The notes under the pieces: model-generated
Database searches by the model: none
The model's input: the letters and a program-made list of their open reading frames with translations, nothing else
Told to the model about the DNA's origin: nothing
Translations under genes and position numbers: made by a program
Source of the DNA: Scatophagus argus
Taxonomy: Eukaryota; Chordata; Actinopteri; Scatophagidae
Assembly (NCBI RefSeq): GCF_020382885.2
Contig: NC_058510.1
Location: 1,598,001-1,662,000, forward strand
DNA length: 64,000 nucleotides
Direction of reading: 5' to 3'
Shown: positions 40,785 to 46,700 of the stretch, piece by piece
Numbering within the stretch: position 1 is the first letter of the stretch
Layout: each line of letters starts with the position of its first letter

Positions 40785-43700
40785 TCACTGGCCTCCAGCA
40801 GCAATCTGGGGAAAGAAAAACAAAATGTTGTAGCAGTCAGCCTAACAGCCGTGGCTTTCGTACGACCACACAGAGACGATAAAAGTTACCTTCATTTTAT
40901 CGATAATTTTCTTGTTGATGGTTCCACCGACAGCTCGCAGTAGTTTGGGCGTGGGCGGCTTGGGTCCGAACAGCGCCAGTCCTTTCTTCTTCTCCTCTTC
41001 TGCTTTGGCTGCCGCTGGACCCTTTGCTTTCATTAGTTTCCTGCACACACAGAAACCGATGAAGAAAAAAACCAGGTATGCTTGCTTAGCAGAGGAAAAA
41101 TATAAGATTCTCATAGTGGAGAAACGTAGGAATGGGCGGGACTTTAACAGGAAGTTAGCCTTGTTTCCAAACCAGTCATTGATTATGGAGAAATGTAGTT
41201 GGTCTATAAAAAGTTTTATGTTAGTTAGTTAATGTTTTTCTGCGTCCAGAGAAAAAAAATGAAGACCAATAATTTATATTTTCATATGTTCATAAACATG
41301 GCTTGGCAGCAGGAGATATTTCTAGTCTGCTCAGCAAACATTATGCTAGCAAGGTTCACAGTCAATGAGCAACAGGAAACATAAGGGCAGAGGGGAGAAA
41401 GGCTGCTTGTCTTTGCCTGACACACCTTCCCTTCCTGGCCAACACTTTCTGAGACTCGGGGTAGTGGACGAGGATGTCAAACAGGTCCTTCTTCTCCAGG
41501 ACAAAGAGGTTAGCGAAGCCGTAGGCCTTGACGTTAGCTGTGCGTCTGTTCCCTCCGTCTTTGGACGACTGCAGCAGACTTGCAAAAGAACCAAACATTT
41601 CGTGTCTGAAAATTCCTTTCTGCACTCGGTCAGGCAAAGTGAAAACGTCAGCTTTATCTCACCTGATTTCTCCGAACACGCAGCCAGCCTTCAGTGTGAC
41701 GAACACGATGCTGTTGTCAGGTCCTCCCACCACCTGCACCGCTCCGCTTTTAATGATGTACATCTCTTTACCGATGTCACCCTGCAGCAGAGGGTTTACT
41801 TTGGGTTCATGGGGTCACATGTGAAATCCAGGATGAAGATATCATATGATCATTACTCACCTTCTTCACGACAAAGTCTCCTGGTAGGTAGATGATGGAC
41901 TTGAGCCTCAGCAACATGTCCACCAACATCTGCTGGTCACAGCCCTGTGGGAAAAAAACAGACTTTGATTTGATCTCATGTCCAAACTGCTGCAGGCCTG
42001 TTTTACTGAGTGCTGGGGACTCGAGAAAAGACACCTTGAAGAGGTCAATCTTCTGGAAGGTGGCCAGGTTAATGTCCACAGCGATGGCGGTTCTCATCAC
42101 CAGAGGCATCTTATCCAGCAGCTCGGACTCATCTGAAAGCACCAGCACAAAAACCAGAACCGGGTTTGTTAGGAATGCAGTATTTATATGTACAACCTCC
42201 TGTTAAAACTGATCTCAGTCCAGTGTTACCGACCCAACATGCCCTGTGCGTCCCAGGTGTAGGTGTACCAGGTGCGGACTCGGTTCTGTACCAGAGAGGG
42301 GATGCGGTTGGTCACCATGTAGGCCACAGTGCTGTCCATGGAGGACCGGAAGTAGGTCTGTCCTGCTGTGGCCGCACCAATAACGTCTCTCATCTGAGGC
42401 AAGACGGTGACGGTGACAATAAATTCATGAACTGAGCCAAAGTCTGGTTAAACAGAAAAACTACTCGAATCAGCTAGTTTTCTGCCAGTCAAGACTCCAC
42501 AGGGAACCAGCGAGAGACGTCTGGAGTGACGGAGGGTGAGGTGTTAGTGAGGCTGGGATGACGGTCAGTATCAGTTCTAACACGACAGGTTTCATTCGGC
42601 TATCACTACATCACCACACCGATGGGACAAGTGGAGAGAGAGGTGACAACAAGCTAATTCAGATCATCACGTTTCCAGACGAAGCTACGGTCTAAATGAG
42701 TCTCTGTGTTACCTGTCCAATCAAACTGGAGAACACAAAGACGCCCGTGAAAAAGTTAGTCATCTGAAAGGAAATCTCAAAGACGGTATGGGGTTCGTTA
42801 AGACCCCCGATGTTGATCAGACTGCGGACAGCGAAGTAGTAACAACGCAGGTACCTGTGGAGAGGGTGGGGGCGTTAGAGGGGCTGTCACAGACGATGCT
42901 ACACCTCATTGGCTGGTTTTGTTTGGACAGACAGAATGAGTACGTGTGTGCACGTGTTTAGGACGGAGTTCAACAGTCTCTGATTCCCTTGATGTCTTGC
43001 TGCAGGCATGAAATAAAACAATGATGAAGACAAAGAATTTTCAGCTTGGACAAGAAACACATGGGCATCTACCTGGGCAAGAATGACGGACATAAAAAAT
43101 GCCCCGAAAAGGTAGTTTGTCATCTGAAAGATCTGTCCAAACATGGTGTCTGGAAACGGCAACTCAGCGATCATCAACAGGGACTTCTCCGCATAGAAGA
43201 AGCAGCTGAGGTAACTGCGGCAGCATCAGGGATCAAACATACAGCAGATTTTCAGTGTCTGTTTGTCTTTGTGTTTCTCAGGCATGAAGAAAACATCGCA
43301 CAAAGCATTGCAGTGAAAAGCTCTGTGATGTAGGGCTGCAACTAATCCACCTGCTTTTGACAAAGCAAAGCAACTCAACCTGACACTTAAGCTGGAACCA
43401 GCACATGTACCTGGCAACAACAGAACCAGGTACTTTAAACTCCTGAACACACGGTGCTAACATTTATTTTGGAAACTCGGTTGTTTGAAGTGACTTTGAC
43501 GGTGACATGTTAGTTGTGAAAATAACTGCTGATACTTTGTGATGAATACTGATGAACTGATTAAAGTGTGCAGTGTGTATAAAAACACAAAGCATTCACA
43601 CACAAGCAGGAAACGAAAGGCTGTGGACTTACGCGCTGCCAAGACCAGAGTAGACCCATTTGGTTTGCCCGATGCCCTGGTAGTCCGACGCCACATAGTA

Positions 43701-46700
43701 CAAGCAGGCGTTGATGTGCAGCATGAAGAGAAGATAGCCGATTGTCCGAATCACTCTGACAGAAAAGTAAAGATGCGAGTTAGCGTCCCTGTCTGTCTGC
43801 ATCCTTCTCCTTGTGGCCAAAGGGGACACGACATGTAAGGTGCCAGACACACCACAAAACAGTAGCTGATATCAATTACCTGTCATCTGTCATTAATAAG
43901 ATAAGATAAGAAGATTGTTGTGCCAGGGTTGCAATACAAAGGGGCAAACTAAAGTATCAAGTAAGTAAGTAATAATGCTGCTAAGCTCACATGCTAAGAC
44001 TATCTGAGACCCTCTGGCTGTTCAATGAGTCGCTCACTGAAGGGAAAACGTTACCTTTATCCTTCTAAATTCTCCTTCTCTCACTTACCTCCAGATGTAA
44101 GCCTTGGCCATGATGCTCTCCAGACGATCGCTGAACTCAAAAAATGTATCTGCCTTCAGAAAAAGCACGAAAATGTCACTCTGCTAAACTGACTTTATTT
44201 GTATGTTTTTCATCACGACTTGCTAACACATTAGAAAATTCACCTTCAGCAGACGATTGGCTCGGAAAAAGGATTTGAAGCCAAACTGGAGGTACAGCAA
44301 GTCGAACGGTATGAGGGACAACGTGTCCATCTGACGAGGAGAGACAGATGGCGTGTGAGCTAACTGAGACAAGTTCAATGTCGTGTTCCACGTTCAGAGA
44401 CGCTTTAAGTTACGATACCATGAATCTCTCGGAATCTCTGTAGTTCTTCTTAGTCATGACTCTGTCTTTCTGAAAGGAAGAAAATGACAGTTAATCCGGG
44501 TTATCCTCAGTATCAGGATCCCCATGTTATCACAAGCCGTACTTACTATGACGTCTCCTCCCCTGACAAACTGTTTGCGGGGCTGGAAGACGATGGAGTC
44601 TGTGAGGTAGATGACATCGGCCAGCACATCCAGGGCGAACCAGTAAGGGATGGCGTCCGCGGTGTGGTAGGGGAAACACAGGCGGGCCGTGCAGAACCAG
44701 GTGTTGTAGTTGAAGGCCAGAGTCACCAGGCTGAGCCAGGCGATGTAGCGACGGTCTGTGAAGGGGTCGATGGTCGTCCCCAGCACAGAGTCCATCTGGT
44801 CCTCAATGGGCTTAAGCACGGCGTCCACCGAAGACCAGGCGACTTCTTTAAACCTGGTCTTCATGTCCTTCTCCTCCTTTTTCTCATCTTTACCCTCCGC
44901 TTTCTTCTTCTCCTCCTCCTCTTTCTTCTTCTGCTCGGCCTCCTTTTTTTTCTGCTCCTGCTCCTCCTTCTTCTTCTTCTCGGCCTCCTCCTTCTTGATC
45001 CGTTCCTCCTCTGCTTGCCTTTTCCTCTCCTCTATGACTTTTACGTAGGTGTCTTTGGGTAGCAGAGGTGCTGAAAGAAGAAAACACTTTCCCATTGAAG
45101 CACCAGCGATAACAGTAATGACAGCGGCGATGCTCGGACTCCTGTGTTTGTACTCACTGATGGGAGGGCTGATCTCTGGGGATGACGCGTACTGATCCAC
45201 CACTTTGTCCTTGTACAGCTGAAGTCTCTCCCTCATGCGTTTGATGATGGCTCTGAGCTGCTCATCTGAATACTTGTTGATGACGATGGGTGGAGGTGGA
45301 GGAGGAGCCGCTTCTTGTCTGAAGATGGCAAATACCAGCAGAAACATGAGCCACACAGCCCTTAGAAGAACTACCGCATTTCCTCAAATAAAAGCCAGAC
45401 ACTCAATTTCAACTTTAGTATCGCGGTTCAATTTAGAAATGCATGTGAAAATACTTTTCACTTTTCACACATCATTTGGTATGGCAGGGGTCACCAACAC
45501 GGTGGTCGCCCCCAGGTCGCCCCCAAGAACCGCACGAGTCGCCCGCAGGCCTGTTCTAAAAATAGTACAACTCACTAGTGACTGCGTCTAAAATTTAATT
45601 TTATTCTGTTGCTGTTCTTTTTTTAATCACACTTGCATTTATATAGATTTTAAAATGACAGCATCTTAAAAATATGTTCATTATAGATTTTTTATTATTA
45701 TTTAAGTTTAGGTGAACTTTGACCTGCTCTAGTTCAAAGGTCAGTGTTGTGCTCGCGACAAAACCAGTGGTCATGGAGAGTAAGCTAGCGGCGCAGCGAA
45801 GATGAGCGCTGAATGCAGTTTCTTACACCCGCAAAATGGCAGAAAAAAAGAAAAGTTATCACGGAGGAGGAGGAGGAGGAGGAGATCTTCTTTACGACTG
45901 TGAAAGAAACCTGCGTGTGTCTCACTTGCGGGGCGACTGTGGCGACGGCAAAGCGGCACAATGTGGAGAGACGCTTCACTACGTGCCACAAAAGCTACCA
46001 TGCTAACTACCCACCGGGAAGCGCGTTACGGGCAGAAGAAGTCCGGGCCACAGAGTTGGTCATTAGTTCAAAATGTGACAAGATTTATTTAAAAATATGT
46101 AAGCTGATTTTTCTTTAACATTACATAATTGATAACTTTTTGAAACATGGTGTAACACATGTGTGGTGGTTTGTTAAAAGGGTTTGTCAGTCGTTAGTGA
46201 AAACGGGACATTTTTCCTATGAAATGTATCGATGTAAGTGATCATCTGAAAATTTAACAATTACTGAGATTAATAAAGTTGTGAGTATTGATGATCTGTT
46301 TCCCACCTTGTTCTCATTGTTGATAATTATTGTGAGAAATCATTAACGTGATCAGTGTCTTCACACAGATGAGAATCGTTATTCATTATTAATAATGTTT
46401 AATTAAAGGCAAACTGGGCAAATGTGTTATTTCAGAAGAGCGTACCAAACTGGTAGCCCTTCGTATGACTCAGCACCCCAAGTAGCTCTCAGTTTCAAAA
46501 AGGTTGGTGACCCCTGTGGTATAGTAATTATGGTTTGCAACATAAAATAAGGACATTTTAAGTGGAAAAGCAACACTAACAAACCCGACCGACTTCAGCA
46601 TCAGCAGCACAAACAGAGGAAGGTCACATCTGTGTTCATATGTCGCCCCCTGGTGGGCAAAGTCCAGGAAGACATCTGTCTGACAGAGGAGCCAGGAGGG

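Follow-up and report, generated by a model that had tools for sequence, protein, structure and literature searches.

Candidate mutually exclusive pore exons in one of two tandem cngb3 genes of Scatophagus argus

The stretch of Scatophagus argus DNA considered here (64 kb, C18:1598001-1662000, referred to as the window) carries on its minus strand two tandem cngb3 genes, copies A and B, for beta subunits of cyclic nucleotide-gated (CNG) channels; both were modelled by hand from splice sites. Copy B appears to carry two homologous pore exons that are mutually exclusive, a standard exon (STD) and an alternative exon (ALT), and the ALT isoform would alter the filter of the cone channel. A probability of about 0.6 is given to this reading, which is drawn from genomic sequence. 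The parts of the locus on which it depends are as follows, in window positions.

45318-40785, minus strand: the model of cngb3 copy B, which runs from exon N1 through the stop codon and leaves out exons farther 5'.
43755-43633, minus strand: S5 exon of copy B, the common upstream partner.
43632-43215, minus strand: intron between S5 and ALT, 418 nt.
43214-43073, minus strand: ALT, the alternative pore exon of copy B, 142 nt, covering pore helix, filter and most of S6.
43072-42855, minus strand: intron between ALT and STD, 218 nt.
42854-42713, minus strand: STD, the standard pore exon of copy B, 142 nt, equal in phase to ALT.
42393-42234, minus strand: exon e8 of copy B, the common downstream partner, which begins MRD.
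37729-33166, minus strand: cngb3 copy A as modelled, with one pore exon (35387-35246); its first exons lie outside the model.

The gene is identified as cngb3 because phmmer ranks STD of copy B to CNGB3 (E 1.2e-19) over CNGB1 (E 3.9e-17). CNGB3 was locally duplicated in the teleost ancestor (PMC9803222), and the cone types of zebrafish differ with respect to cngb3.1 and cngb3.2 (PMC8405809).

ALT is fully open and has ag/gt ends (acceptor gccgcag/TTACC, donor GCCCAG/gtagat). The initial annotation of this DNA had placed between the S5 exon and STD a second open exon of 142 nt, with equal phase and canonical splice sites, and its coordinates, acceptor and donor are borne out. The ALT product is identical at 20 of 47 residues to STD, as had been noted, and equally to the standard exon of copy A and to the cngb1 exon on contig C7; the count is 19 of 47 for cngb1 on contig C1. 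The cngb1 pore exons of the same genome are also 142 nt long, with ends identical to those of ALT and STD. Among PDB sequences, phmmer matched ALT to six CNGB chains at E 2e-8 to 9.4e-7 (CNGB1 E 2e-8, CNGB3 E 7.6e-7) and to three NaK-type chains, one of them a NaK/CNG chimera, at E 0.23 to 0.49, with zero natural CNGA chains at E up to 10. In the genome itself (570.7 Mb in 48 contigs), a search with ALT at E up to 10 gave at least five matches, namely ALT, two cngb1 exons and two cngb3 standard exons; no second copy of ALT was among the matches listed for this 571-Mb assembly. A CNGA pore searched against the same genome at E up to 1 gave 12 matches, none of which was ALT. By homology, ALT encodes a beta-type CNG pore. 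The notion of a chance open stretch or an assembly artefact has a negligible probability, chance being refuted by the phmmer value of 2e-8 and artefact being opposed by a single perfect match in the genome, which lies on a contig of 22 Mb. Pfam gave nothing useful on the two pore segments, and viral contigs searched with the ALT protein and with the cyclic-nucleotide-binding exons yielded no relative. The prokaryote genome contigs gave 15 bacterial loci only, which were not used; neither collection yielded a fish sequence.

The reading frame permits exactly one of the two exons. Spliced with either ALT or STD, the model has one uninterrupted frame of 646 codons, counted from exon N1 and with the stop codon included. 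With both exons a stop appears 57 nt into STD, which upholds the earlier statement that they are unusable together, and with neither a stop follows immediately at the junction. The first stop of the double-inclusion message lies 85 nt before the 3' junction of STD, a place where nonsense-mediated decay would be expected. Thus ALT and STD are adjacent, homologous and equal in phase, have a length that is not a multiple of 3, and leave the frame open when one is used. Splice sites were ranked by leave-one-out position weight matrices built from the two cngb3 genes' own sites. The ALT donor ranks 14 of 28 and that of STD 15 of 28; the ALT acceptor is weak but usable (25 of 30, as compared with 20 of 30 for STD). 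Simple steric exclusion is not indicated, since the introns are 418 and 218 nt long with GT-AG ends, and exclusion would therefore rest on regulation and decay. Splicing-factor motifs around ALT, counted informally, look about as frequent as those around the other exons, and marks of decay (stops, frameshifts, lost splice sites) are absent from ALT. The frame logic, the splice sites and the coding signatures discussed below make a coding exon used in mutual exclusion with STD the best interpretation of ALT, and the two exons probably form such a pair.

In the filter region ALT reads MIAELPFP, STD of copy B NIGGLNEP, the solved CNGB3 chain TIGGLPEP and the solved CNGA chain TIGETPPP, the strings being as initially given; the solved chains are presumably human. 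The pore was compared with 14 other CNG pores, seven beta and seven alpha; another two alpha pores from fish, each interrupted by an intron, were excluded. ALT has Glu, aligned with the alpha-subunit filter glutamate, at position 410 of CNGB3 numbering, where all seven beta pores have Gly and all seven alpha pores Glu or Asp; the pore glutamate claimed for ALT is thus confirmed. The human filters are T365-I366-G367-E368 in CNGA3 and T407-I408-G409-G410 in CNGB3 (PMC10761061). The contrast drawn earlier with the human-type filter is correct, with the refinement that the fish standard exons read NIGG and that the changes in ALT far exceed the pore Glu: T407M, G409A, E419G, V431A, F434M, I438L and G439A also occur. 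ALT retains Ile408, Pro412, Pro414 and, in the hinge, Gly430, and Arg403 is replaced by Lys, which is also found at the equivalent position of CNGB1. The arginine gate (R442) that marks CNGB subunits comes from the common exon e8 (QMRD). The filter follows neither the CNGB pattern TIGG nor the CNGA pattern TIGE (TVGD in CNGA4), the Glu being present with Thr and Gly replaced, and because it reads MIAE, ALT is not classed as a standard CNGB pore.

The initial annotation had called the exon CNGA-like, which holds for the Glu and not for the exon overall. Of the 47 residues, 16 are found only in beta pores, 4 only in alpha pores (F398, E410, L428 and I437), 8 in both and 19 in neither, so that 24 occur in a beta pore. 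A derivation of ALT from CNGA was rejected by a tree test, in which placement among CNGA cost 15.7 log-likelihood units (approximately unbiased, AU, p 0.015).

The standard exons of both cngb3 copies read NIGG, and solved CNGB3 and cngb1 of the same genome read TIGG. In STD of copy B, Asn replaces the filter proline of the other pores compared (LNEP).

ALT might instead be a decaying duplicate, an old tandem exon copy that selection has left and that is open by luck. It differs from STD of copy B at 32 of 48 third codon positions and 37 of 94 first and second positions, and from the standard exon of copy A at 28 of 47 third positions. Its GC content at the three codon positions is 0.40, 0.30 and 0.70, with 0.47 T at second positions, as in the other four pore exons; the introns around it have GC contents of 0.42 and 0.47. 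Neutral drift toward intron-like composition was simulated from four assumed ancestors, the standard exons of copies A and B and the cngb1 exons on C7 and C1. At 0.47 substitutions per site, third-position GC and second-position T were both as high as in ALT with P 0.0005, 0.00025, 0.00095 and 0.00625 for these ancestors, respectively, and at 0.3 per site with P 0.0005, 0.00085, 0.0023 and 0.0237. Absence of a stop alone is common in neutral runs (0.27-0.28 at 0.47 per site). Its combination with an S6 free of charge and proline and with the BLOSUM score of ALT was seen in 0.00095-0.00355 of runs at 0.47 per site and in 0.027-0.040 at 0.3. The absence of indels contributes an extra factor of 0.036 or 0.0013 at 0.47 per site and 0.12 or 0.015 at 0.3, if 0.05 or 0.1 indels are assumed for each substitution. 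In runs without a stop at matched identity, started from two of the four ancestors, changes this conservative appeared in 0.032 (standard exon of copy A) or 0.0015 (C7) of cases.

Several results weigh against the preferred reading of ALT. From the C1 ancestor, third-position GC alone is not significant (P 0.23 at 0.3 per site, 0.076 at 0.47), S6 hydropathy is ordinary under drift (P 0.17-0.53 at 0.3-0.47), the drift measures were picked after ALT had been seen, and an intron-like equilibrium was assumed. In a branch codon model on one topology, leaving omega free on the ALT branch gives no significant gain over fixing it at 1 (2dlnL 2.88, p about 0.09; log-likelihood -581.8 with omega free and -583.3 with omega fixed), because the data are explained about as well by a saturated branch of low omega as by a neutral branch of lesser length. 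Of the eight columns that do not vary among the 14 other CNG pores, ALT keeps only three (hypergeometric P 0.54), having lost, among others, the invariant filter Gly (G409A), E419 and the upper cavity-gate Phe (F434M). Beta-invariant columns are kept with no preference for those common to CNGA (7/13 as against 9/17). A test for preferential keeping of beta-invariant columns (16/30, P 0.045) was not leaned on; it is confounded, since the standard exon cannot stand in for the ancestor of ALT. The standing of omega 1 in the codon test, the retention of CNG-invariant residues no better than chance, the long protein branch (1.4) and the weak acceptor are what decay has in its favor. Against it, an open exon with a charge-free S6 and changes this conservative makes up 0.040-0.00095 of neutral runs at 0.3-0.47 per site, to be multiplied by 0.12-0.0013 for freedom from indels, the GC3 and T2 values are coding-like, and the splice sites are intact. 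Neutral decay appears unlikely because there is no stop or indel, the composition is of coding type and the changes are conservative. ALT is read as showing coding constraint for a membrane pore module in which the strict constraints of CNG pores have been relaxed or changed.

Since CNG-invariant residues including the filter Gly are lost, normal conduction of the ALT pore is not assured. The main functional rival is a brake subunit: the ALT isoform would assemble with a pore that conducts poorly or not at all, and splicing would lower the current. G409A, the loss of E419 and F434M hit residues invariant in the 14 other pores, and in related channels a filter Gly-to-Ala change tends to leave the pore unable to conduct. 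On the other side, ALT would supply just one subunit in a channel of four, its changes are conservative on average, and Ile408, Pro412, Pro414 and hinge Gly430 are kept. A brake is rated as rather doubtful, if less so than decay.

The preferred reading, a splicing-chosen pore with an altered filter, would work as follows. Cells would choose one exon of the pair, and a message with both or neither would be degraded. The ALT isoform would join CNGA3 subunits as the sole beta subunit of the cone (or pineal) channel and add a fourth carboxylate to the filter ring, through Glu at the Gly410 position. It would retain Lys at the Arg403 position, the hinge Gly430 and the arginine gate from e8, and would alter the filter and the cavity gate through G409A, T407M, F434M and I438L. 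Judging from the residue changes, the most likely effect would be that divalent ions block the channel more strongly and that its conductance falls or changes. The Gly of the CNGB filter would weaken Ca binding, and an engineered Gly-to-Glu change in CNGB1 much enhances Ca block (PMC10761061 and work cited there). The odds that altered block or permeation is the role of ALT are put at about even, and a calcium-block switch is plausible. Only tentatively can ALT be proposed as the natural counterpart of the engineered beta Gly-to-Glu change, a pore chosen by splicing that would switch Ca block or conductance in some cones or pineal photoreceptors.

ALT had been described as a duplicated exon, and as a coding tandem homologue this remains the best reading; its duplication from a cngb3 exon is not settled by the tree and is inferred from position. 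Within CNGB, ALT may be placed with CNGB1 (the best placement), with CNGB3 or outside both (AU 0.09 to 0.87), on its branch of 1.4. In the exon-masked window no remnant of ALT was found in the introns of copy A, the best ALT match (E 0.83) lying on the plus strand upstream of copy B. A tblastn search for stray cngb3 exons in introns gave zero matches at E up to 1 with the low-complexity filter on.

The standard exons of copies A and B are identical at 39 of 48 third positions, as compared with 18 of 41 in the S5 exon and 32 of 53 in e8, and their likeness extends only 12 to 14 nt beyond the exon on its upstream side and 3 nt on its downstream side. On this pattern the two standard exons have exchanged sequence recently, and because of the exchange the divergence between ALT and STD of copy B does not reveal how old the one is compared with the other. 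The same exchange would be expected if copy B had begun with ALT as its pore exon and STD had been imported or overwritten from copy A, and the third positions of ALT, 19 of 48 identical to the standard exon of copy A, resemble those of S5. The similarity edges at the exon, however, fit gene conversion between existing exons and not a new insertion, and ALT is identical to the standard exon of copy A at 0.68 and 0.57 of first and second positions, against 0.76 to 0.87 for the flanking exons of the two copies. ALT as the original pore is distinctly improbable.

Exons e10-e11 with their intron (41947-41661 and 34205-33919, minus strand) are 99.65% identical between the copies over 287 nt, other exons being more diverged. 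By this likeness, very recent gene conversion has affected the cyclic-nucleotide-binding region. A stretch of 52 nt at 46820-46769 (minus strand), upstream of the modelled exons of copy B, is 84.6% identical to the 3' end of STD of copy B with its donor and the start of the intron. Copy A has an 81-nt intron (37181-37101, minus strand) where copy B has a single uninterrupted exon (45070-44547). The S5-pore intron of copy A holds at about 35745-35480 (minus strand) a tandem repeat, seen by eye, of cttcagagtgt/cttcagcgtgt units, which can be read as long open frames, none of them a gene. Elsewhere in the window, an open frame at 3083-1463 (minus strand) encodes an F-box (Pfam E 1.2e-13). Its neighbor gives a SPRY-like match just below the cut-off (E 2.4e-5), and the two probably belong to one F-box/SPRY gene, which we take to be Fbxo45-like.

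Among the closest known systems is NALCN, whose exons 15a/15b and 31a/31b offer alternative selectivity filters (PMC3557258). These are tandem mutually exclusive exons, and 15a/15b span pore helices, filter and proximal S6, as do ALT and STD; the upstream exon 15a has Glu at the key filter position and the downstream 15b Lys, and ALT, with Glu, is also upstream. NALCN is a four-domain invertebrate channel for which transcripts and conservation across phyla were shown (PMC3557258), whereas the ALT/STD pair belongs to a vertebrate CNG beta subunit, is read from the DNA of a single genome and changes further filter and gate residues. Among human genes with tandem duplicated exon substitutions, ion channels are enriched and 44.3% of non-disordered residues are conserved (PMC9741552); the likeness lies in adjacent homologous exons used singly, and ALT and STD share 43%. 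The string 'cng' has 0 matches in the main text of that article. The standard exon of CNGB3 and CNGB1 agrees with ALT in its 142 nt, phase and ends, and ALT differs by Glu for Gly410 and by the loss of five of eight CNG-wide invariants. The engineered CNGB1 channel is acidic at the identical filter position through a single change, in contrast to the many further changes in ALT (PMC10761061). A CNGB3 pore exon pair is undescribed in the titles and abstract openings among the matches listed from the open-access literature. The excerpted text of one review contains neither 'alternative splic' nor 'splice variant' (PMC9953513), and that of another names CNGB3 once, in a table (PMC7917623).

In photoreceptor channels, the replacement of the filter Glu by Gly in the beta subunit is tied to the strength of Ca block and to the Ca carried (PMC10761061), and a gene that offered both Gly and Glu beta pores would be a natural system for testing the role of the filter. 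An additional cngb3 isoform would fit the pattern known from zebrafish, where tandem cngb3 genes divide between cone types (PMC8405809). If the reading given here is true, copy B would show that splicing can exchange a filter in a vertebrate too.

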